This document shows, one piece after another, positions 1-41,829 of a DNA stretch of 64,000 nt (position 1 is the first letter of the stretch; every line of letters starts with the position of its first letter). The position numbers and the translations under genes are program-made. The notes under the pieces are model-generated. The model was not told the DNA's origin and searched no databases. It saw only the letters and a program-made list of their open reading frames with translations. This stretch comes from Solen grandis (lineage: Eukaryota > Mollusca > Bivalvia > Adapedonta > Solenidae), in NCBI GenBank assembly GCA_021229015.1, contig CM037780.1, forward strand, positions 69,945,656 through 70,009,655, written 5' to 3'.

Positions 1-1480
1 AAGGTTGTATGGGGTTAAAAAAATTTTTCATATTCGGGGGGGCCCCAAATGAATTTGATAGTTCCGTTCTTGTAACTGTGCGTAGGCAAAATTTCCCTTT
101 TTTAAAAACCCCCCGATGGTTTTGGGCCGGGTGGGAAAAAAAATTGGGGTTTTTTAAAAAAAAAAGTTTTTTTAAAAAATTTTTTTTTTTCCGAACCCTT
201 TTGGGGGGGGATGAAAAAAATTTCTAGGATGTTGAAAAAAATAATTACTTTCCATGATGGCCCCAAAAAAAAAAACCCCCCCTTGACATGAAAATTTTAT
301 TTTATACCTAGCAAAAAAACCTTTTTCAAAAAACAGTCAAAAAAAAAAAATATACACACATCATGAAACAGTCTTTCTTTATACATCAACCTTCCGGCAA
401 TAACTGGTAATCCCAAAAAAATTTTAAAAAAATGCAACTTCGTCAAAAAGTTCCTCCCCCTTTTTTAACGCCCCCTTTTGATGAAAATTTCCCCGTACAA
501 ACAAGCCCCAAAAAAAACCTACGCCCCGGTTTAAAATTTGGGGGTTTTTGGGGTTTTTTTTTCCTTTTTTTAAAAAAATTTCCCCCCTTTTGACTTTTTA
601 TTCGTTTGCCCCAAATCTCTGCGTATATCTTATTTTGTAGGGGTCCCCCGGGATTCGTTCCAACTCCAAAAACCCTTTTTAAAAAGTTGAAACGGGGGGG
701 GTTTTTGAAAGAACTGTTAAGGGGTTTTTGGCCCCGTTTGTTTTAATATTGCGCTTTCACTGTTTTTCCCAAAAAAAATTTAAAAAATTGTCACAAGGAA
801 AGGTTTGGATCAGTAAAATGGCAAAAAAAATTTTCCCCCGGTTTTGTCCCCCCCGGGGGTTAATGAAAATTTGATAATACCTCATCAAAAAGGGTTTAGT
901 TTCTCCCCTTTTTTCAATGGTTTTTGGGGGTTAATGGGGTTAAAATTCCCCAAAAATTTTTAAATCAGGGGTAGAGGTTTAAATGTAAAAATCGGGTTTT
1001 TTTAAAAAAATTTTTTTGGATTGGGGGAAAAATTTCCCCTGTAAATGAAACTTTTAAAAACTTTTTGGGTTTAAAAAAAAAGGGAAACCCCTTTAAAGTT
1101 TTGGGGGAAATTTTTTGTTTTCCAAAAAGTGTTGGGGGCCCCCCCCAAAAAATTTTAAAAAGTTGCCCCAAAAACAGAGGTTTCTTATTAGCTTCAAGAG
1201 ATTCTGGAGATATCTTTGTATTTTACTGGTAAGGTTCACGTAAAAATTCCCCCTGTTTCCCCCCCCTTCAGGTTGCAAACGAATAAAAGCCCCCCCTTTA
1301 CGGCGGAAACCCCCGGCACTGTCTTATATTTTTCCCACCCAAAAAGTTTTATACACTGAGGGAACGTTGGTCTGTGTCCAATGACATTTTTTATTTTTAA
1401 AAATTTTTATTTTTGGGTTCATATTCGGGGAAAAATTTGTAATGTTTTTTTATTTTTGTACACAGTTGACCATAGTCTTA
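1..1480. other. Corrupted, homopolymer-inflated sequence
   Basis: Runs of 4-10 identical bases of all four kinds follow one another throughout, a texture found nowhere else in the window and not that of a natural simple repeat. Short islands look normal, for example 358-412, which is open on the minus strand and protein-like, and 1190-1250. Text at about 1330-1410 on the minus strand still resembles a polymerase C-terminus. The stretch is best read as unpolished or mis-called sequence that hides the left continuation of the virus-like element. No ORF here should be trusted. Confidence 0.75.
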
Positions 1481-1499
1481 AAATTGACTTTTGACTAGC

Positions 1500-2477
1500 A
1501 TTGTAATCCAAAGTGATACCTTTTACTTTGCATTTCTGATGTCGATTTCCTTTTTCATCGATATATTCATACCATAGTTTTTTGGCCCTAATGCCACGAA
1601 TTTGACAATGCGTCCATGTGGTACTTCATCTGTCCACTTTCCCAACTGGCTCTCTTCAATTGGAATGTTGTACTGGTCAGGGTCATAGATGTACATACAA
1701 CTGTCTGTGTCAAAATACAGTACCCGATCTCCAATTTTTTTCCAACTGGGTTTGTAAAGTTCAAGTCGAGCATAGGACGTAACGAAGGCAGCTACCACTG
1801 GATTTGAAGATGAATGGGGCTGTGTTGCGTCTGTTTTATCCGAGTAATTCACCCAACATGAAGTTGTCATGATCGAAAATCTCGGCAAACTGCACAGTGA
1901 CATGACGGTCGGAGAGTAGGTCATACAACCGGTTCACCTTAGTCACATACTCGGTTTGGTTTGAACATTGTTTTGTGCATTCTTAACCCACAAACAGTTC
2001 AACATGGTTTTGGCAAACGCTCTTTTTCCTTTGTTCTTTTTCACGTTGTCGAGCCAGATACCCTCTATCTGAAAGTAATTCTGTTTAAAGCGGGCTTCAT
2101 CATCTTCTGTTTTTACCCAATTAGGGTAACCACTTGCTTCTTGTTTCAATTTCAAGTATTTGTTAATATACTGTTTATACACATCTTTACTCCATGTGTC
2201 CCAGTGCCAGATGTGAAGACGTCTACCAATTGGTATCCTAACTCAAGAGCTTTGGCTATTTCCACATGGGTCCAGGTACCTGTCAACATGCGTTTGTACA
2301 GAGTGTGATTGCATTTTTCACACTCTTCCTCAGCACAGGTACGGCACAGTGTAAAGATCATTTTCTTGTTACAGTGAATAGGTAGGACTGGTAGCCACAG
2401 GTCTTGGGTGGTAATACACGACATTTGATGAGTCCCTTGTACATTCCAATGTTGTTTATATCAATCATCTCTTGACT
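1500..2477 (-). pseudogene. Type B DNA polymerase, broken C-terminal (palm/thumb) part
   Basis: This continues the polymerase encoded at 2478-5099. After the stop at 2478-2480 the same frame stays open for about 25 codons, then the reading shifts near 2405, near 2185 and near 1985, giving minus-strand pieces at about 2152-2424, 1943-2182 and 1523-1924. Polymerase landmarks survive: a Cys-rich stretch (CRTCAEEECEKC) in the first piece, a motif-B-like KTMLNCLW in the second, and the catalytic YFDTDS motif C at about 1698-1712 in the third. Below 1523 the text continues in a shifted frame toward the corrupted region. The lesions are single-base shifts plus one stop, dense here and absent in the adjoining 2.6 kb, so sequencing or assembly error is at least as likely as decay. 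Confidence 0.75.
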
Positions 2478-5099
2478 TTAGATGTTGGTATGTCCCACGG
2501 GGTATGTTTTGTACTTGTTCACGAATGGATACAGTGAGCAAATGTCAGCATACTTAATTTCTTCCTTGGTGGTTGTATCCACTTCATGGTATAATTGAAT
2601 GGCATTGGTTCGTCCACCAAACAAAGTATCCCGAGGTAAAATAGGTTCTTGGAAGGGAAAGAAACGGTTCACAGCATCTCTGTATTCTGGTTCAATCTTA
2701 CATTTCTGATCAAAGTCACATTCCCACATTACAACTGTGTTGTAACCTTGTTGAGACAAGTCTTTCAACCGAAAAGTTGTGGCATTGTATAACTGCTCCA
2801 TAGTTTGAAGTGTGTAACCGTTCACACTGTCTCTCCTTGGGTAACAATTTGGACATCCGTGTGTCCAGCACCCCATGAATTCGTATACGGTGTTCGTCTC
2901 TTTGTGGAATCCGTCAACGTAATAGGGTCCAATTTGTACTTCACCTCCATTTAATGCATGGCGAATGTGCTTATTCTCAATGGAAGCAGTTGTTTCTATC
3001 CAACGAATCCCTTTGATTGAGTATCGAGTTTTGTTTGGATACCCGGCATCAGAGATTACAGCCAAGGTCTTTGGAGGCATTGAATTTTTACGCCAAGCTT
3101 TGTTGCACACTTGAGCTAGAGTGGTCGCTTCCAGGAACGGATCAATTTGGTCACTGACCAACAGTTCTTTCCTAAACTCTCCACAACCTCGTCTCAAGAT
3201 GTCCACATCTGATTTGCAGTACTTTTGCATTTCTAACTGAAAGTGAAACACAGCCTTTTGTGCCACTTTTGCATTGTACCATTTCAGAAACGCTTCTCTC
3301 TTGTCAGGTTTCATGCTGTCGGGTCTGTAAAAATGTACGGGGAGATAGTCTCCAATGTAGTCTTGGTATTCATCCGTGTTGGCATAAAATGGAAACCATC
3401 CTTTTGCCATCTCAGTCAATCCAAACGTGTCGGGGAAATCGGACAAAGGCATGTTGAGAAAACTCAGTGAGTCGATGAATCTCACTTGATGGGCTTTCAT
3501 CATTAGAATTTTGCTTCCATTCATGATCAATTTTGGTTTGGCTGTATCATGTGTCAGTAAGTGCCTCAAAATAAACTGTGCATCATATCCTTGTGAGTTG
3601 TGAGCAATCACTGTGGTACCTTTGTGACTGGGTTGAAACAGCCATGTACAAAATTCTGACAAAGTGTTGTTACCACGAAATATTTTTTCTCTAGGCTCAT
3701 CCACAGCTTCGCATTTCTGACACGGGTTTTTCATGGATTGACACATACAGTCTCCACAAGCACGTTGAGCAACACAAAAGTTTGGTATATGTTCACCCGA
3801 ATCAAATCGACACTCAAAGTCAAAGAAGATGAAAGGTACAGTCGGTGACTTCATGTTCTCTGGTTCTTTGTACGTGGGGATATAACACTGATGTTCTGCA
3901 TCCACAACTTTCTTGCAATACTTGCATTTTTTAGTGCCAGGACAGAGATGGTTCTTCTTTGTACCCACAACCATTTGACCACAGGTCTTGCATTGCCATA
4001 CACTTTCACAGATGTTTTTTGTAGATTTTCCTGGTTTCGCTTTGTGCTGATCAAAACATTTCTGACTATGAAATGTTCTACCACAGTGACCACATGGAAA
4101 GAATCCTTCTTTTGGGCATAGTGTCAAGGCGTAACACCGACAAATATTCTTACACCAGTGAGCTTCTCTGTTGTTATAACCGTAGTTACAGTGTTCACAG
4201 AAGTAGCTGCATCCCAGGAAACCAGTGATTGATGTAATGCAATCATAATGTTTATCATGATGATAAATGTGAATCACTTTGCTTTTGTCTGTCAGAGGTG
4301 GGTGATTGAACAACACGTCCATTTTCTCAAATTGTGGCCACACTTTGATCACATAGTCTGGATAAAGGTGGGCTTGAATCTTCTTGTATTCTTCTATACC
4401 ACAAGGCTGATTTGGACTAATGCCCACACTATCTAACAATGTCTTGGCTTCTTGGCTTTGAAGAAATTTTGCAGATTGTCTCATCAAATTCCATCGCTTC
4501 TTCCAGGCTGTATCGTCCGTTTTATTGAGTTTACATATCCCTACCACAATTGATCGTGCCAAACACATACTGTCGTGAACATTGTCTATCTTTATCATAC
4601 TTCGTTTGACTTTGGACATGTTCTCAATGCTTAGGTGCGATCCAAACGTTCTTTTTGTTCTTCCACCTCCCTCGGGCATAATGACATGTGTCATTTCTAA
4701 CTGGAGATCCCCGTCATGAATCTCAAACTTGTGGTTGCTTTGTGATACTTTCTCTATTTCGTTCAACAGCGTATCTCCTGAAATGTGTGTTGCATTCCCG
4801 AATGGAATGTGGATACCAAATGCTAGGTCAGGATGATTTATGGAGATACGAATTTGATCGTTGTCATTGACCCGTGCTTCTCTGTATAACTGTTTCACCA
4901 TGTCATTGAAAAGTTGATGTGTAAATTCAAACGGTTTTTTATATCTTTCAAATGTAACATCGTACACGTGGCCCTTCGTTTTAAACTTTCTTGAAGTTCT
5001 CTGTGACCGTGGCTGTATGGAATAATATTCCCGTATATCACTCTTGGTCTTTTTTGCAGGTGGCTCATCATCATCGCTGCTTTCTTCACTACTCGACAT
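2478..5099 (-). CDS. polB: Protein-primed type B DNA polymerase (Polinton/adintovirus-like), N-terminal 873 residues
   Basis: Replicates the DNA of a Polinton/Maverick- or adintovirus-type element. The protein starts at a true ATG with an acidic Ser/Glu/Asp stretch and a basic PPAKKTK segment, probably a nuclear localisation signal. Residues ~290-415 carry several Cys/His clusters (CEHC, CGHCGRTFHSQKCFDQH, CKYCKK) that look like zinc fingers. The 3'-5' exonuclease follows: FFDFE at ~425, AHNSQGYDAQF at ~496, YCKSDVD at ~625. Polymerase motif A (DICSLYP) is at ~850, just before the stop. Motifs B and C lie downstream in broken frames, so this is a truncated reading of a longer enzyme of probably 1,200 or more residues. 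It diverges from the zinc-knuckle gene across a 135-bp promoter region. Family assignment rests on the motif order; the exact lineage is uncertain. Confidence 0.85.
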   Translation of the reverse strand: MSSSEESSDDDEPPAKKTKSDIREYYSIQPRSQRTSRKFKTKGHVYDVTFERYKKPFEFTHQLFNDMVKQLYREARVNDNDQIRISINHPDLAFGIHIPFGNATHISGDTLLNEIEKVSQSNHKFEIHDGDLQLEMTHVIMPEGGGRTKRTFGSHLSIENMSKVKRSMIKIDNVHDSMCLARSIVVGICKLNKTDDTAWKKRWNLMRQSAKFLQSQEAKTLLDSVGISPNQPCGIEEYKKIQAHLYPDYVIKVWPQFEKMDVLFNHPPLTDKSKVIHIYHHDKHYDCITSITGFLGCSYFCEHCNYGYNNREAHWCKNICRCYALTLCPKEGFFPCGHCGRTFHSQKCFDQHKAKPGKSTKNICESVWQCKTCGQMVVGTKKNHLCPGTKKCKYCKKVVDAEHQCYIPTYKEPENMKSPTVPFIFFDFECRFDSGEHIPNFCVAQRACGDCMCQSMKNPCQKCEAVDEPREKIFRGNNTLSEFCTWLFQPSHKGTTVIAHNSQGYDAQFILRHLLTHDTAKPKLIMNGSKILMMKAHQVRFIDSLSFLNMPLSDFPDTFGLTEMAKGWFPFYANTDEYQDYIGDYLPVHFYRPDSMKPDKREAFLKWYNAKVAQKAVFHFQLEMQKYCKSDVDILRRGCGEFRKELLVSDQIDPFLEATTLAQVCNKAWRKNSMPPKTLAVISDAGYPNKTRYSIKGIRWIETTASIENKHIRHALNGGEVQIGPYYVDGFHKETNTVYEFMGCWTHGCPNCYPRRDSVNGYTLQTMEQLYNATTFRLKDLSQQGYNTVVMWECDFDQKCKIEPEYRDAVNRFFPFQEPILPRDTLFGGRTNAIQLYHEVDTTTKEEIKYADICSLYPFVNKYKTYPVGHTNI

Positions 5100-5234
5100 C
5101 GTTGTGATTATAAGTAAGTGAGCAAAGCTTTTTTATACATCTAAGCTCCGCCCACCTGATCTCAGGCCTATAAAGTGCGGTGTGACCCGTCCACTTCATC
5201 ACTCTCAAACCTGATTCAGACTGCTCTGTTCAGA
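5100..5234. promoter_or_regulatory. Divergent promoter between polymerase and zinc-knuckle genes
   Basis: A minus-strand TATAAAA (plus 5131-5137) lies about 32 bp upstream of the polymerase ATG, which implies a leader of only a few bases. A plus-strand TATAAA at 5169-5174 lies about 60 bp upstream of the zinc-knuckle ATG at 5235. Between them is a GC-box-like CTCCGCCC near 5145. The compact head-to-head layout resembles viral or histone-type promoters. Confidence 0.65.
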
Positions 5235-5777
5235 ATGACCTGCAATACATTTGAGTTCTGGGTGAAAGGACAACTACAAGCTATCAGTGACAAGCTGATC
5301 AGACTAGAAACAGAAAGACAAGTGACATGCTACCGCTGTCAGGAAAAGGGGCATTATGCATCGGCATGTACGAAGAAAGCTTCAACACCTCAAACAGTAC
5401 GGGTGTGCTACCGTTGTCATGAACCGGGACATTTTGTTTCTAATTGCCCAAAACCTACAGTGTGCTACAGTTGTCACGAACTAGGCCACTTTGCATCCGC
5501 TTGTCCTAAGAAAGGGATGAATAGTACTGTACCTACAGTAAACGCACAGGTGGACAGTGAAATGCAGAAAATGGACGTAGTTGAGACAGTGCCACAGACG
5601 GACAGTGATGTTGAGCTACTAGAGACTGTCTCTGAGTTGGAGAAACCTACCGTAAAACCCAAGAAACGCAAGAGAAGCGTCAACACATGCATCGTGTGTC
5701 CTGAGGCTCACCCATCAACAAGCAATACAGAGTGTAACCGATCAGCTAAGAAGCGAAAAATGACATTTGAACACTAG
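5235..5777 (+). CDS. Small protein with three CCHC zinc knuckles
   Basis: The 180-residue protein starts at the ATG at 5235, placed by the TATA box at 5169. After a ~30-residue helical N-terminus it has three CCHC knuckles of the CX2CX4HX4C type (CYRCQEKGHYASAC, CYRCHEPGHFVSNC, CYSCHELGHFASAC) at roughly residues 33-100. A Glu/Asp/Val-rich linker and a basic PKKRKRS-type nuclear localisation signal follow, and the last part has a further Cys pair. CCHC knuckles bind single-stranded nucleic acid, so a replication or packaging cofactor of the neighbouring polymerase is a fair inference, not shown. Knuckles also occur in retroviral Gag and CNBP-like proteins, but there is no other Gag feature here. 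Confidence 0.75.
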   Translation: MTCNTFEFWVKGQLQAISDKLIRLETERQVTCYRCQEKGHYASACTKKASTPQTVRVCYRCHEPGHFVSNCPKPTVCYSCHELGHFASACPKKGMNSTVPTVNAQVDSEMQKMDVVETVPQTDSDVELLETVSELEKPTVKPKKRKRSVNTCIVCPEAHPSTSNTECNRSAKKRKMTFEH

Positions 5778-5869
5778 ACTTGAAAAAAACAAAGTTGTGT
5801 TATGTTCATTATTTGCTGTATGACGCACGTTTAATTCATTGTTACTGACACATGTTTGTTGTTAAACAC

Positions 5870-5875
5870 AATAAA
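5870..5875 (+). terminator. Polyadenylation signal of the zinc-knuckle gene
   Basis: AATAAA lies 93 bp after the stop codon and runs into an A tract. It contrasts with the histone-type 3' ends of the two small genes next door. Confidence 0.6.
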
Positions 5876-5904
5876 AAAAAATCATATGACAATTGTATTA
5901 GTTA

Positions 5905-5941
5905 TCCTTTCTACATCATTGTAATGGTCCTGAAAAGGACC
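5905..5941 (-). terminator. Histone-type 3' stem-loop and downstream element (minus strand)
   Basis: Read on the minus strand, GGTCCTTTTCAGGACC (5941-5926) is a perfect 6-bp stem with a TTTC loop, preceded by AAC and followed by ATTAC. GAAAGGA (5911-5905) follows after exactly 14 nt and resembles the purine-rich histone downstream element that pairs with U7 snRNA. The stem begins 20 nt after the stop codon of the gene at 5961-6176. Stem size, loop, flanks and downstream element all match replication-dependent histone mRNA 3' ends. Confidence 0.75.
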
Positions 5942-5960
5942 GTTATTTATTGAGAAGTGT

Positions 5961-6176
5961 CTAGCACTCACTCAAATACAAATACCGCCAGTAATGCCTG
6001 CTGGCTTCTGGATATGCCAGGTAAAACCCTGACAAATCCGGGTACAATGGCAAAGGGGGTAAACTCGGGTATAAGTTGACACCCTCTTCCTTTATACCCT
6101 CTTCCTTGACTTCTACTTTCTTCTCCTTTCGTAACACCTTCCTTGCACGTCGGAATAACTTACGAAGGAAATTCAT
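5961..6176 (-). CDS. Small basic protein with a YPxL-like motif, virus-like element
   Basis: 71 residues from the ATG at 6176, chosen because a minus-strand TATAAA (plus 6211-6216) would start transcription near 6185, just upstream of it. The N-terminal ~20 residues are strongly basic and amphipathic (FLRKLFRRARKVLRKEKK); an acidic KEEG repeat, a proline/leucine stretch with PLYPDL, and a Tyr-rich C-terminus follow. PLYPDL fits the YPxL late-domain pattern that recruits ALIX, and a basic amphipathic start suits a membrane- or DNA-binding minor virion protein. Both roles are speculative. The mRNA would end at the histone-type stem-loop 20 nt downstream. I do not recognise a family. Confidence 0.6.
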   Translation of the reverse strand: MNFLRKLFRRARKVLRKEKKVEVKEEGIKEEGVNLYPSLPPLPLYPDLSGFYLAYPEASRHYWRYLYLSEC

Positions 6177-6424
6177 GGTGAAGAATGAATACATACACAG
6201 CATTACACAATTTATAGTCAAGAAAAAAGTAGGTTAGTAGGTCAATCCACCCCAAAATGTCAAGGCCGAAGACAATGCTATCTAACTCAGGTCAAGGTCG
6301 AACTTGATTTATTGGATGAAAAAATAACGTTCTCTGATTGGTGTGCGCCAACACAAGAAAGTAGGTCAATCCGGTACTATAAAACAGTGCACATACTCTA
6401 TACTTTATTATTCATGATTGAAAC
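6177..6424. promoter_or_regulatory. Divergent promoter with a 13-bp direct repeat
   Basis: A minus TATAAA at 6211-6216 serves 5961-6176 and a plus TATAAAA at 6378-6384 serves 6425-6763. AGTAGGTCAATCC occurs twice in the same orientation, at 6236-6248 and 6360-6372, each within ~25 bp of a TATA box and therefore a candidate shared regulator site. An inverted CCAAT box (CTGATTGG) lies near 6335. Confidence 0.6.
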
Positions 6425-6763
6425 ATGAGACCGTACACACGTAGCTCCACCCCAGACTTGCTAAAATTGTTCCTCGACAGTCCCAGCTATGAGGAACGAG
6501 AGAGCGACCCAGACAGCTATCACGACCAAGTTGATGTGTATGATCTATATGTCACTCTTACAAAAAGGGGAGATCTCCCTAATTACCTGTCAGTTACCTT
6601 TGAAGATGTACCATCTACCCTACTACAGGGATCGGGAGACAGCCTGAACTTCATAGGTGACAAGGATCTAACCCGTTGTCATTTGCATCTCCTTGCAGGA
6701 TGGATGAAGAGATATGTCATGGGATGGGACTGTCAAACGTGTGGTATAGACCACAATATGTGA
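6425..6763 (+). CDS. Small acidic protein with C-terminal CxxC repeat, virus-like element
   Basis: 112 residues from an ATG 41 bp after a TATA box. The N-terminal two thirds is rich in Asp, Ser and Tyr (residues ~8-45), followed by a hydrophobic LHLLAGWMKR segment. The C-terminus WDCQTCGIDHN holds a CxxC pair. The frame stops at TGA 6761-6763 but then stays open for 11 codons that repeat the same CxxC peptide before a TAA at 6797-6799. The gene is divergent from 5961-6176 and ends in the same kind of histone-type 3' stem-loop. No family is recognised; association with the polymerase element is inferred from position and shared promoter and terminator design. Confidence 0.6.
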   Translation: MRPYTRSSTPDLLKLFLDSPSYEERESDPDSYHDQVDVYDLYVTLTKRGDLPNYLSVTFEDVPSTLLQGSGDSLNFIGDKDLTRCHLHLLAGWMKRYVMGWDCQTCGIDHNM

Positions 6764-6799
6764 TGGGACTGTACAACATGTGGTATGGACCACAATTAA
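6716..6799 (+). repeat. Tandem ~39-bp coding duplication across the TGA stop
   Basis: Two units each encode W-D-C-x-T-C-G-x-D-H-N. The second follows the TGA stop directly and ends at TAA 6797-6799. Where the first unit has GGA before the Trp codon, the second has TGA. Each unit also contains a GTGGTAT..ACCAC palindrome. Confidence 0.7.
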
Positions 6800-6812
6800 T
6801 AAGAAACAAAAC

Positions 6813-6849
6813 GGCCCTTTTCAGGGCCAACCCCAATGTCTCGAAAGGA
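6813..6849 (+). terminator. Histone-type 3' stem-loop and downstream element (plus strand)
   Basis: GGCCCTTTTCAGGGCC at 6813-6828 forms a 6-bp stem with a TTTC loop, preceded by AAAAC and followed by AACCCC. GAAAGGA at 6843-6849 follows after 14 nt, the same spacing and sequence as in the copy at 5905-5941. It begins 50 nt after the TGA stop, or 14 nt after the downstream TAA. Confidence 0.78.
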
Positions 6850-6886
6850 CATTTTTACAATTGTCATTTTTACAATTTTACATAAA

Positions 6887-6997
6887 TCTGTTTTCATATA
6901 GAGTACCATTCGGTACTATAGATTCTGTTTTCATATAGAGTACCATTCGGTACTATAGATTCTGTTTTCATATAGAGTACCATTCGGTACTATAGAT
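6887..6997. repeat. Perfect 37-bp triplicate with internal hairpin
   Basis: Three identical 37-bp units start at 6887, 6924 and 6961. Each contains AGTACC-ATTC-GGTACT, a short inverted repeat. The array sits where a terminal repeat of the virus-like element would be expected. Confidence 0.85.
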
Positions 6998-7090
6998 TTG
7001 GTACCATAAGTACCAAAAAAAAAAAAAAAATTATGGTACCACGGTACCATAAAAAAAAAAATTTATGGTACCTTGGTACCATAGTGCCAC
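6998..7090. repeat. GGTACC palindromes separated by A tracts
   Basis: TTATGGTACC-AC-GGTACCATAA at 7031-7052 and TATGGTACC-TT-GGTACCATA at 7064-7083 are near-perfect palindromes separated by A runs, with a degenerate copy at about 7000-7014. With the triplicate just before, this may be the terminus or an origin-like region of the element. Confidence 0.6.
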
Positions 7091-8163
7091 CCTATACTAC
7101 TAATAGCGCAATAAAGGTGACGTAATTGAAAGCACATATAACGCCAATTAGACACAATACTAAGTCTTCTTGATACGCATTACCAAGCACCGCATTTTTT
7201 TGGATAAAATAAATATGCTTACAAATTTAAAGTACTGAAATGATAATCTTGTGTTTTTTTTCCTCATATTATTAAGTTAATTGTTGCTAACTTATGAAAA
7301 TTTTTATTGTGTGTGGCAAATAAAGCGTTTTATAACGTACAGTAGGATTGTTTTTCCTTCACTAGAAGACAATTTGCATCATTGTTATTTTTTTCTTTCG
7401 TTAAAGCAGTTATTAAAAAAAATTCTATAACGAGGGCATGCGTAGGTTGCAAATAAGTGAAGATGTATTCAGTAGCTGAAGTTCTATATACGTCATACTT
7501 TGATTTCGGACTCGATTTGACTGACCAATCATTGACCGACGGACTGGACAAATTCAAAATTACACAAACAAAAAACTTGATCCGTTCTAAGGGTAATACT
7601 TTGTTTGCCTTGAGGTAACCATCTTTATTTTTTCTTTTATGTGTTTATCTTCACCTTTTGTAACATTAATGGTGTAAATTACTTGTTCTTAATATTAGAA
7701 ACACAATCCGATGTATAATTACATTATTAAACTGTGTAATGTAATCATCAGCGTTATTCAGACCCAAACTAAATATATTTAATATTTCATATACTGACAT
7801 GTTAATTTTTAAACTGATTATATGCGATCTTTTATTTATATTTATATATTTATACACATTTTGGCTATGTGATGATCGTCTTCACAACCATATGCTATGG
7901 ACTTGTCATACCCAGATTTTGTTTGTTATGATGCATTTAGCCCACTAAAGGCCTTCATCTCATTTATCTCTTCATGGAGCGGACCACTTCCAAAGGATGT
8001 CCTGTGAATGTTTATTTAGTTTTGGAATGAACTTTAAGGACATGTACCGGTATATGTATCTATTTCCTTTTTTAGCAAATTAAAATCCGATTTACCTATT
8101 TCCAAAAATAACCCAATAAACTGATATTCTGTTTTTTGAGAGATAGAGAGTGAAGTAGACTGC

Positions 8164-8204
<41 letters not shown>

Positions 8205-9125
8205 TGAGGGAAATCTTTATAAAGAGCAACAACTAGAAGAAACAAAACGAAAGGAATGGGAGTTTCAGGCAAGGATATTGGCAGCATTTCAAATGACTTT
8301 ACAATTTAATCAATCTTATCCATAAAATGAAAAATAAGTACTACTTTTAATAACATTGATCGAATTCCATTTGTGACATATAAAATATTTTACCTGCGTT
8401 AAGCGATATAATTAATCAATGATTCATAAACCTTCGTTAAGATTATATGTACAGCTGCGTATCGACTAGCAACTATTTCAGGTAATGCACATTAGGTTTG
8501 GGACGATTCGTATAATGTGATTAAGTAGAGTTATTCAATTTCAGTAAACATAACTCAAATCCAGGGTGGTCTTTGTCATTGGTCTCGTGTAGGTGGAAAA
8601 CAGCAAGTCACACGAGAGCAGTTTGTATTTGCCTTTCGCGGACAGCCACCTGCTTACTTCTAGAGACTGAATCGACAATTTGGTGTGATTTGAACCGTTA
8701 ACAATTCAATCGGAGCTGTGGACTCCGACAGAATACACTGATACAACCTTTCGGTAGTGAAATGCTGAAGAAAGATCTGAGGTCGTCGGACTACTATAAT
8801 ATATGATTATAGGACCGATTTCCCGTGCCTGTTTAAACTGTCGAACACATTTAAGTAAAGGTTACTTTTGCTCTCGTATCGTATTCAAGCACGCCGTAGA
8901 CTGGTATAAACGTACATCTGGAACCGAGGGGTGCTAGTAAGAACCCCCAAATGGGAACGTATTTCTTTGGCTTCCCAGACACAACAGTAATGTTGCAACT
9001 AAGGAACCGCCAAGGATAATTTTAAGTTGCAAGAGATTGTTTCCCAGTCGGCGTAAAGCAAAGTTTAAACTGTTACACAACTGTTTATGAAAAAAATCTT
9101 AACTAAATGAAATACATGAATATCA
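7091..9125. other. Non-coding stretch
   Basis: AT-rich sequence without a convincing ORF. The only distinct feature is the CA microsatellite listed separately. Confidence 0.6.
8167..8202. repeat. CA microsatellite
   Basis: Uninterrupted CA dinucleotides over about 35 bp. Confidence 0.95.
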
Positions 9126-9129
9126 TAAA

Positions 9130-9855
9130 GACGTAATATAGTAGCGTGCAATGTATACTACTCAGTTCATCATGAAGAGTTAATATTGAAACGTCAAGCA
9201 CTGTATACCGCTAAGTTCATTATGAACACGTCATATTGTAGCGTCATGAACTGTATACCACTCAGTTCATCATAAAGACGTCATATTGTAGCGCCATGCA
9301 CTGTATACCGCTCAGTTCATTATGAACACGTCATATTGTAGCGTCATGAACTGTATACCACTCAGTTCATCATAAAGACGTCATATTGTAGCGTCATGAA
9401 CTGTATACCACTCAGTTCATCATAAAGACGTCATATTGTAGCGCCATGCACTGTATATCACTCAGATCATTACGAAGACGTCATATTGTAGCGTCATGCA
9501 CTGTCTACCACTCAGTGAACCATGAAGACGTCATATTGAAGCTTCATGCACTGGGTGCTATTCAATTCATCATAAAGACGTCATATTGTAGCGTCATGCA
9601 CTGTTTACCACTTAGTTCACCATAAAGACGTCATATTGTAGCGTCATGCACTGTATATTACTCAGTTCATCACAAAGACGTCATGTTGTAGCGCCATGCA
9701 CTGTATACCACTCAGTTCACCTTGAAGACGTCATATTGTAGCGTCATGCACTGCATAACACTCAGTTCACTATGAAGAGGCAATATGGAAGCGTCATGCA
9801 CTGTATACCACTCAGTTCATCATGAAAACGTCATATTGTAGCGTTATGCACTAAA
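9130..9855. repeat. 50-bp tandem repeat, about 14 copies
   Basis: The consensus contains ...GACGTCATATTGTAGCG followed by ...CTGTATACCACTCAGTTCATC and repeats every 50 bp with point differences. The central units are closest to each other and the edges degenerate, which is typical of a minisatellite. The AGACGTCAT in most units resembles half of a CRE site. Confidence 0.9.
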
Positions 9856-9885
9856 TACACCACCGTACCTGTTTCTTAGGTCAGC

Positions 9886-10075
9886 ATATGAGGGTAGTTG
9901 CAGACTGGTTTGCCCGGTGTAAGGATAATGTGACTGGGTGTGGTATCATGCCACATGTCTACGGCGTGATACTGCAGCGTGGCAGCACTATATCTGTCTC
10001 AAGTAGACATCGTCTCCAAATGACTGAATTACTGTCGCTGGGACGTTAAACCCAACAAATAAACAAACTGTTTCT
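9886..10075 (+). mobile_element. SINE body, head-less copy
   Basis: Matches the body of the SINE at 25826-26110 (GTGTGGTATCATGCCACATG, then ATACTGCAG..GGCAGCACTATATCTG). It ends in GGGACGTTAAACCCAACAAATAAAC, an A-rich tail typical of bivalve SINEs. The tRNA-like head is absent. Confidence 0.7.
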
Positions 10076-14574: not shown

Positions 14575-14647
14575 GGCTTGATAGCTCAGTTGGTAGAGCG
14601 CAGGAACGGTATTCCTTAGGCCCTGGGTTCGAGTTCCAGTCGTGCCA
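14575..14647 (+). tRNA. tRNA-like sequence, probable pseudogene or SINE head
   Basis: 73 nt that fold into a cloverleaf with A-box TAGCTCAGTTGGTAGAG and B-box GGGTTCGAGTTCC. The acceptor stem pairs except for one T-T mismatch. By position the anticodon would be GGT, but position 33 is C instead of the invariant U and the anticodon stem has a mismatch, so a functional tRNA is unlikely. A promoter-competent pseudogene or SINE head is more probable. Confidence 0.4.
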
Positions 14648-41365: not shown

Positions 41366-41648
41366 CAGCAGATTTAAAAAAATCCAAATACGATTTACAT
41401 CCCATAAATAACATTCCCGCGATTTCGCGGAGCATTTTCAAGTATCTACACGAAAATGTCTTATGATGTTATCACTTTGAAAACAATTTCATGATAAATT
41501 TAACATATATACTTCTAGTAATACAAAAAAAAGTATTTCTGTGTAAAGCAAATGGCTAAATCCTCAAATTATTGTAAACATATCAACAAACCAGATCCTC
41601 AACTTCATTAAACCTTTCCCTCATAGAGGAAACCATGAAAAGACCTAT

Positions 41649-41715
41649 GCGAACAACATAAAACCAGATCAGCCTGCGAGTAACTCGCAGGCTGATCAGG
41701 TTTTATGCTGTTCGC
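41649..41715. repeat. 67-nt near-perfect hairpin
   Basis: Two 32-nt arms (GCGAACAACATAAAACCAGA.. and its complement) flank TAA, with two mismatches. It sits in a ~200-bp repeat of the 'cagcctgcgagtaactcgcaggctg' type; I suspect an interspersed foldback element rather than a microRNA. Confidence 0.75.
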
Positions 41716-41829
41716 TGCTCCTCAGTGGTCTGGAAATGAGGATTTTGTAATTAAATTTGGTAAGGTTTAACTGTGGTTTTCCGCAGATCAGGCTTTATAT
41801 GGTACCTATTGAGTGCGTCAAAATGAGTC

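Follow-up and report, generated by a model that had tools for sequence, protein, structure and literature searches.

The Element in the Window

The window, by which we mean the whole stretch of 64,000 nucleotides of Solen grandis DNA analysed here, contains the right-hand portion of an element like those of adintoviruses and Polintons (Table 1). This copy is truncated at an assembly gap and crosses poor sequence, namely about 1.8 kb to the left of the window and bases 1 to about 1450 of the window itself. Its type B DNA polymerase (PolB) matches its Pfam family with an E-value of 3.1e-22, has relatives among the proteins of Mercenaria mercenaria (54–67% identity) and Crassostrea virginica (38%), and is of the viral, protein-primed kind. 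Two accessory genes, here called A and B, diverge from a common region of 248 bp with a TATA box on each side. Both are small, uninterrupted ORFs, and the region between them differs from the divergent promoter region of PolB and the zinc-knuckle gene. No homologue of either was found in a search of 5.8 billion proteins by a method that needs shared five-residue words. The predicted structure of protein A is poor (pLDDT 43).

Table 1. Features of the element copy in the window, in window coordinates.
Feature	Position	Strand	Remarks
Type B DNA polymerase	1327..5099	minus	PF03175; frame broken below ~2478, last part in poor sequence
CCHC zinc-knuckle gene	5175..5777	plus	AATAAA at ~5870, without stem-loop; divergent promoter region in common with PolB
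Gene B CAATTGTC box	5888..5895	minus	30 nt past stem-loop; common to host histone 3' ends
Gene B purine element GAAAGGA	5905..5911	minus	14 nt past stem-loop; position of histone downstream element
Gene B histone-type stem-loop	5926..5941	minus	GGTCCTTTTCAGGACC; same bases as stem-loop of host histone H1 gene
Gene B	5961..6176	minus	71 aa, accessory; stop 19 nt before stem-loop
A/B divergent promoter region	6177..6424	.	two AGGTCAATCC sites, from 6239 and 6363
A/B promoter GTCAAGGTCGAA	6291-6302
A/B promoter ATTGG boxes	6311, 6337
A/B promoter TATA boxes	6378-6383; 6216-6211	plus; minus
Gene A	6425..6763	plus	112 aa, accessory; stop 49 nt before stem-loop
Terminal-inverted-repeat-like region	6798..7103	.	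matches terminal inverted repeat of the L036/L039 copy; contains gene A stem-loop and 37-bp tandem repeats
Gene A histone-type stem-loop	6813..6828	plus	GGCCCTTTTCAGGGCC; stem is that of host core histone genes
Gene A purine element GAAAGGA	6843..6849	plus	14 nt past stem-loop
Gene A CAATTGTC box	6858..6865	plus	29 nt past stem-loop

The first-pass annotation had placed histone-type hairpins downstream of two small divergent ORFs, with an AAC flank before them and a GAAAGGA element at a fixed distance behind. The sequence bears this out at every position claimed: the hairpins start 19 nt (B) and 49 nt (A) after the stop codons, AAC precedes both, and GAAAGGA follows after exactly 14 nt. When the window is scanned with the consensus GGYYYTTTTHARRRCC, allowing at most one mismatch, these two hairpins are the only matches, against 0.5 expected; 8 of 100 shuffles reach two matches, a figure that understates the case, since both matches in the window are exact and carry the flanks. 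A search with the Rfam model of the histone 3' stem-loop (Histone3, RF00032), proposed in the same annotation, likewise finds both, with 30.7 and 29.9 bits and E-values of 8.2e-5 and 1.7e-4 (computed for the whole window and all families; the Histone3 gathering score is 34), and they are the only Histone3 matches among the 18 Rfam matches of the window at E ≤ 10. Judged by sequence and model score, the window hairpins are genuine Histone3-like signals. The contrast originally drawn between the hairpin genes and a zinc-knuckle gene that uses AATAAA holds in part: the latter has its AATAAA near 5870 and no stem-loop, but another AATAAA (minus strand, 5951–5946) stands immediately upstream of the gene B hairpin.

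Six Histone-Type Ends per Element

A fuller copy of the element, of 19.3 kb, lies at C1:2860300-2879600 and was read as four separate stretches. Its terminal inverted repeats are 270 bp long and 99% identical (L036 versus L039). This copy, which lies outside the window, encodes an integrase with a chromodomain (rve, 2.8e-13 in Pfam) and an ATPase (Pox_A32, 26.9 bits; cut-off 22.8), both in L037, an adenain-like protease in L036 whose match is weak (Peptidase_C5, 17.1 bits, below the cut-off of 21.3), and a capsid-like ORF of 431 aa that is 28% identical over nearly its full length to an ORF of L005, a distant relative described below. No Pfam family matches the capsid-like ORF, and its profile gave only chance-level matches against the PDB. 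The CCHC gene is present too, the PolB frame is broken, and no RNA polymerase was noticed among the listed ORFs, of which a subset was searched. By these sequence matches the gene set is of the adintovirus/Polinton type. Searches of IMG/VR with PolB, integrase, capsid and gene A found no relative.

The accessory genes of this copy stand in the order E, F, D, C at its left end and B, A at its right end. Gene C is RING-like, with 21.8 bits at best, which is below the Pfam cut-offs, and gene E contains a sequence that presumably resembles a SUMO-interacting motif. Among copies, pN/pS is 0.28 for C and 0.73–1.42 for the other five genes, values as for mostly inactive copies. The possibility that A–F are degenerate histones was rejected, as none of the six has a histone match in Pfam.

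In the fuller copy, cmscan gives exactly six Histone3 matches at E ≤ 1 (28.8–34.8 bits; E 7.3e-7 to 1.2e-4), one after each of A–F, and zero in the block of protease, capsid, integrase, ATPase and PolB. Gene C passes the gathering score, at 34.8 bits, and A, B, D, E and F lie below it, at 28.8–30.7. The hairpins had initially been ascribed to late or structural genes; this ascription finds no support in this one copy, where all six follow accessory ORFs near the two ends.

Hairpins were counted in positions 1–8000 of the window and in 24 stretches, which are the four of the fuller copy and 20 more that were chosen through matches to the A–E hairpin. Within 400 nt after one of A–F, on the same strand, lie 61 of 63 hairpins (A 12, B 11, C 10, D 8, E 11, F 9), the A–E counts being biased towards intact hairpins because the stretches were selected by that hairpin. 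The F hairpin is outside the search pattern, yet 9 exact F hairpins are present in 11 left-end stretches. Where the ORF is full-length, the hairpin starts 13–49 nt past the stop; in the fuller copy the E ORF is shortened and its hairpin lies about 104 nt past the stop. A GARAG-type purine element follows 60 of the 61 gene-assigned hairpins and one of the two hairpins that have no assigned gene. It reads GAAAGG(A) in A (12/12), B (11/11), D (8/8) and E (10/11), GAGAGGG in C (10/10) and GAAAGAG in F (9/9), and it stands at 13–15 nt with three exceptions, where the distance is 16 nt (A), 10 nt (C) and 5 nt (D).

Signals of another type also occur near some of these ends. AATAAA or ATTAAA is found 84 nt (D) and 114 nt (F) after the stops, and C and E have neither within 250 nt downstream. 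With such motifs beside the ends of B, D and F, polyadenylated alternatives, or dual use, are possible for these three genes.

Copies across the Genome

In the 1.32-Gb assembly, exact matches to the pattern GGYCCTTTTCAGGRCC number 858 in the forward and 888 in the reverse direction, 1,746 in all, where about 2.5 are expected at equal base use; the reversed pattern has 0. Estimated from this count, the element is probably present in hundreds of copies. The loci that we examined were drawn from the first 100 of the 1,746 matches listed, all of which are on contig C1. The element type accounts for 28 of the first 30 loci and another repeat for the other 2; a GARAGG-type element lies at 13–15 nt in 27 of the 30.

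Among 18 isolated places picked by eye from the first 100 matches, eight are linked to A, B, C or F and six fall in two other repeats; the rest are one element 3' end without a matched gene, one host histone H1 gene and two places with an ORF of another kind. Four of the eight gene-linked places have only 42–71% protein identity to A or F; the hairpin is present there by construction, the purine element is at 14 nt in all four and the box in two. L066 and L072 (42% and 56% protein identity to A) were considered as diverged subfamilies and rejected as such. With DNA identities to gene A of 88% (124/141) and 93% (142/152) over the parts compared, they are copies in decay whose reading frames have been disrupted. 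Since the decayed copies were found through the hairpin, its retention in them is no test of selection. L083 held no hairpin.

The two other repeats that contain the same 16 bases are one of about 290 bp (L024, L025, L068, L070, L071) and another represented by L065, L069 and L077. The one copy of each that was tested (L043, L065) is without the purine element and without the box.

Host Histone Genes as the Standard of Comparison

The host H1 gene found at one of the isolated places, identified by eye, lies beside a stretch (L084) with genes labelled H3, H4, H2B and H2A on the basis of characteristic motif words. The H1 hairpin is GGTCCTTTTCAGGACC, 35 nt after the stop, and has the same 16 bases as that of gene B. 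The hairpin of the four core genes is GGCCCTTTTTAGGGCC, 26–33 nt after the stop; its stem is the stem of A, C, D, E and F, and its loop differs. The purine elements of the five host genes (GAAAGG, GAAAAG, GAAAGAG, GAAAAG, GAAGGG) start 12–13 nt past the hairpin, and an AATTGT-type box stands at 29–32 nt in all five (H1 CAGTTGTC, H2A AAATTGTC, the others CAATTGTC/T). All six ends of the element have the purine element at 14–15 nt and CAATTGTC/T at 29–32 nt, and a box of this type occurs in about 4.5% of equivalent stretches taken from the local sequence. L085, the stretch that follows, contains four further hairpins of this kind; one of them, after an H2B gene, has an altered tail without the purine element. 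The central assertion of the first-pass annotation, that an adintovirus/Polinton-like element carries histone-type 3' ends, is strengthened by the finding of the same three-part end in host H1, H3, H4, H2B and H2A, and this match, together with that of the promoter words described below, is better evidence than that annotation had at its disposal.

In Rfam, the five host genes of the L084 region score 31.1–36.8 bits, and because host H1 (31.1) and H2A (32.5) also fall below the gathering score, the element's scores look like those of slightly less typical but ordinary Histone3 members. Across 11 distinct host, element and L005 sequences, all 66 cells of the stem alignment are paired. The compensatory T-A/C-G change between the two window stems, which had been read as a sign of selection on structure, is real, but it concerns a single pair, in B and host H1, and it also sets host H1 apart from the core histones; shuffles lend it little weight, since of 500 shuffles 12 reach the covariation score and 176 have as many changed pairs. 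In the bivalve Lucina pectinata, all histone mRNAs are reported to have stem-loops, with purine-rich elements near only some of them (PMC6210712).

Promoters

The A/B and C/D promoter regions are homologous, with about 89% identity over 162 bp, and the region upstream of E has the same core. These three regions share exact words of 11–14 bases, of the AGGTCAATCC and GTCAAGGTCGAA types, with the promoters of host H2A, H2B and H4. Words are shared in 8 of 15 promoter pairs, as compared with a mean of 0.74 and a maximum of 4 in 300 first-order Markov resamplings; as the three element regions are related, 8/15 overstates their independence, and the result is nearer one observation than three. The A/B region alone has words in common with three of the five host promoters. 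Of the three control regions, the PolB/CCHC region and the one preceding the capsid ORF have no word in common with the host promoters, and a single 11-base word is shared by the third, which precedes the integrase (1/15 pairs); at 136 and 106 bases, two of the controls are shorter than the element regions (246–250 bases).

Host histone promoter words are thereby found for A–E, the five of the six genes that the comparison covered; between F and the D hairpin no separate promoter was noticed. An E2F-like site in the A/B region was dropped from consideration, being absent from the C/D region. The 3' ends of A, D, E and F also resemble one another. Given the likeness among the 3' ends and among the promoters, the six ends and the three promoter regions are not independent events.

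A Distant Relative

An alignment scan of bacterial genome assemblies with PolB yielded three eukaryotic-virus-like contigs (L003, L004 and L005). L005 (8.9 kb, binned as Bacteroidia) encodes PolB, an integrase, a TBP-like gene and a C2H2 zinc-finger gene. Its only Histone3 match at E ≤ 5, with 35.8 bits (E 3.3e-7), is above the gathering score; its hairpin begins at position 8340, 28 nt past the stop of the C2H2 gene. L005 is without the AATTGT box, which is what one would predict if this box is a feature of the present bivalve lineage, and the purine pattern is unmatched, the sequence there being AAAAAAGAGA. The CRE sites of L005 are absent from the element regions scanned. L003 (3.6 kb) and L004 (7.9 kb), both incomplete contigs, have no Histone3 match. 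Two matches of the hairpin pattern in IMG/VR (L001, L002) were set aside as chance, having phage-type ORFs by eye and no Histone3 match at E ≤ 0.1, and a longer hairpin pattern found no matches in that database.

Interpretation

In histone pre-mRNA, SLBP binds the hairpin, U7 pairs with the purine element and cleavage takes place between the two, with no poly(A) added; the translation and stability of the mRNA are tied to S phase. The element has the sequence signals of this system, which are attached to genes, repeated, and like those of host histone genes. On this basis we think it quite probable that the element expresses A–F as mimics of replication-dependent histone genes, with respect to their 3' ends and, for A–E, their promoters; the proposed purpose is expression in S phase. 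The mRNAs of A–F would then end in an SLBP-bound stem-loop after U7-guided cleavage a few nucleotides beyond it, without a poly(A) tail. They would be made alongside histones in S phase, when the DNA-copying machinery that the element needs is at hand, and would be switched off when replication stops, with the PolB, capsid, protease, integrase and ATPase genes using other signals. We infer the SLBP/U7 processing, the lack of poly(A), the S-phase timing and an early regulatory role from the signals themselves; as the histone-type ends are carried by accessory and not by capsid genes, their distribution suggests that A–F are early regulators tied to host DNA replication.

A wider reading, which we find plausible without quite favouring it, is that a lineage of animal DNA viruses or virus-like elements puts an accessory gene set under the host histone programme, promoter and 3' end together, so that the genes would be expressed in S phase only and without poly(A), perhaps at histone locus bodies. 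In adintoviruses the strategy would then have an early origin or have been taken up more than once, and it would follow the histone signals of the host in each case, as L005, a distant relative, has the same type of end on an unrelated zinc-finger gene with another downstream signature. An element that uses histone-type processing on six non-histone genes, with signals spelled like those of its host's histones, would represent a new means by which a DNA virus links its expression to S phase and escapes control based on poly(A). The natural sequence variants of the element would also help to define the requirements of SLBP and U7, and its sequence signature could be used to seek the same strategy in other animal viruses.

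The foremost alternative is that the element acquired its 3' ends and promoters by capture from the histone genes of the host and that they were then duplicated inside it, where they may today be passive relics. The match of both to histone genes of the same genome would follow naturally from such a capture, as would the identity of the B and host H1 hairpins and the arrangement of A/B and C/D as divergent pairs with homologous promoter regions, and the decayed copies, found as they were through the hairpin, do not speak against relics. However, the proteins of the element have no histone match; B, C and the A/D/E/F group differ in their spacers, each of them keeping hairpin, purine element and box; and L005, which comes from a different source, has a version with another spelling. 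We regard capture with passive survival as unlikely, and prefer the reading of A–F as active histone-gene mimics.

The second alternative takes the hairpins for viral termination or poly(A) hairpins as in mimiviruses, with a mere resemblance to histone stem-loops. Polinton-like viruses are related to viruses that use such a hairpin rule, but a histone stem, loop and AAC, a near-fixed purine element and an AATTGT box common to host histone genes, together with the restriction of the hairpins to accessory genes in the copy examined and the failure to notice an RNA polymerase among the ORFs searched, make this highly improbable. Just as hard to credit is a dispersed repeat or DNA-level element without an RNA role (part of a terminal repeat, for example), a case that the first-pass annotation had raised against itself: the 16 bases do recur in two other repeats, and the terminal inverted repeat includes the hairpins of A and E, but the tested copies of those two other repeats lack purine element and box, the four remaining hairpins (B, C, D and F) stand outside the terminal repeats, and 61 of 63 hairpins are on the sense strand after a gene.

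Comparison with Known Systems

The element has in common with adintoviruses and Polintons (Mavericks) the PolB, the rve-chromo integrase, the A32-type ATPase and the terminal inverted repeats; the weakly matched adenain-like protease and the capsid-like ORF shared with L005 are candidates for further points of likeness. The literature examined, whose coverage is incomplete, contains no report of histone-type 3' ends in adintoviruses or Polintons, or in any virus or mobile element.

The hairpin poly(A) signals of mimiviruses and virophages are similar in that a hairpin stands at the 3' end of the gene in a DNA virus lineage. They differ in having no fixed histone-like sequence and in that poly(A) is added there. 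Hairpin polyadenylation in mimivirus is described in PMC4402537. The dual-mode H2A.X gene, whose mRNA ends in a stem-loop or in poly(A), is like B, D and F in the possible combination of hairpin and poly(A) signal, and differs in being a histone and a host gene (PMC7807067).

The comparison with replication-dependent histone 3' ends (RF00032; SLBP, U7 snRNP) involves both differences and likenesses. The genes of the element encode no histones, and their Rfam scores are slightly lower. The element has the loop TTTC (TATC in F), host H1 likewise has TTTC, and the host core histones have TTTT; the hairpin is followed by AAC, AAA, ATT or ATC in the element, by ATT in host H1 and by ACA or ACT in the host core genes. 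Processing of this kind is regarded as nearly exclusive to histone genes. The element has the same stem, loop type, AAC flank and short distance from the stop codon, the same purine element 12–15 nt downstream, the AATTGT-type box of its host, and, like the histone genes, short uninterrupted ORFs.

Histone-type ends outside the main element

A second, different non-histone gene bearing a histone-type end is found in L076, one of the places in the genome of Solen grandis where the hairpin occurs. Here the hairpin (36.9 bits with the Rfam Histone3 model, RF00032, whose gathering score is 34 bits) terminates an ORF of 130 amino acids, and is followed by GAAGG 12 nt beyond it and by CAATTGTC 32 nt beyond it. 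Judged by eye, the product of this ORF may be SGNH-hydrolase-like. L076 and the near-identical stretch L075 lie about 13 kb apart on the same contig, C1, at approximately 45.18 and 45.17 Mb, respectively.

The hairpin is also carried by repeats. One of these, dispersed, about 290 bp long and perhaps a MITE, has L024, L025, L068, L070 and L071 among its members; in the one copy examined, L043, the hairpin scores 24.1 bits, and the purine element and the box are absent. A separate repeat, represented by L065, L069 and L077, has GGTCCTTTTCAGGACC followed by ACAAATTCAC or similar, and the purine element is absent from the copy examined (L065).

Other features of the window

The frames of PolB, the type B DNA polymerase of the element, are disrupted within very poor sequence that is probably an assembly fault. 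The inverted repeat is probably a palindromic repeat.

Additional features of the window and of L041, the stretch to its left
Feature	Position	Remarks
Very poor sequence	window 1-1450; L041 3856-5700	many stretched homopolymers; adjoins 100-N gap
37-bp tandem repeat	window 6887-6998	three exact copies; inside terminal repeat region of element
Tandem array, 50-bp period	window 9034-9983	right of element
tRNA gene or tRNA-derived repeat	window 14575-14647	50.6 bits
Near-perfect inverted repeat	window 41638-41724	weak mir-1253 match (Rfam), both strands

A distant relative of the element

In L005, an 8.9-kb adintovirus-like contig, positions 7189-7725 code for a homologue of the TATA-binding protein (Pfam TBP, E = 1.5e-27), and the stretch at 7726-8041, ahead of the C2H2 gene that bears the hairpin, contains TGACGTCA at three sites together with a single CCAAT box.
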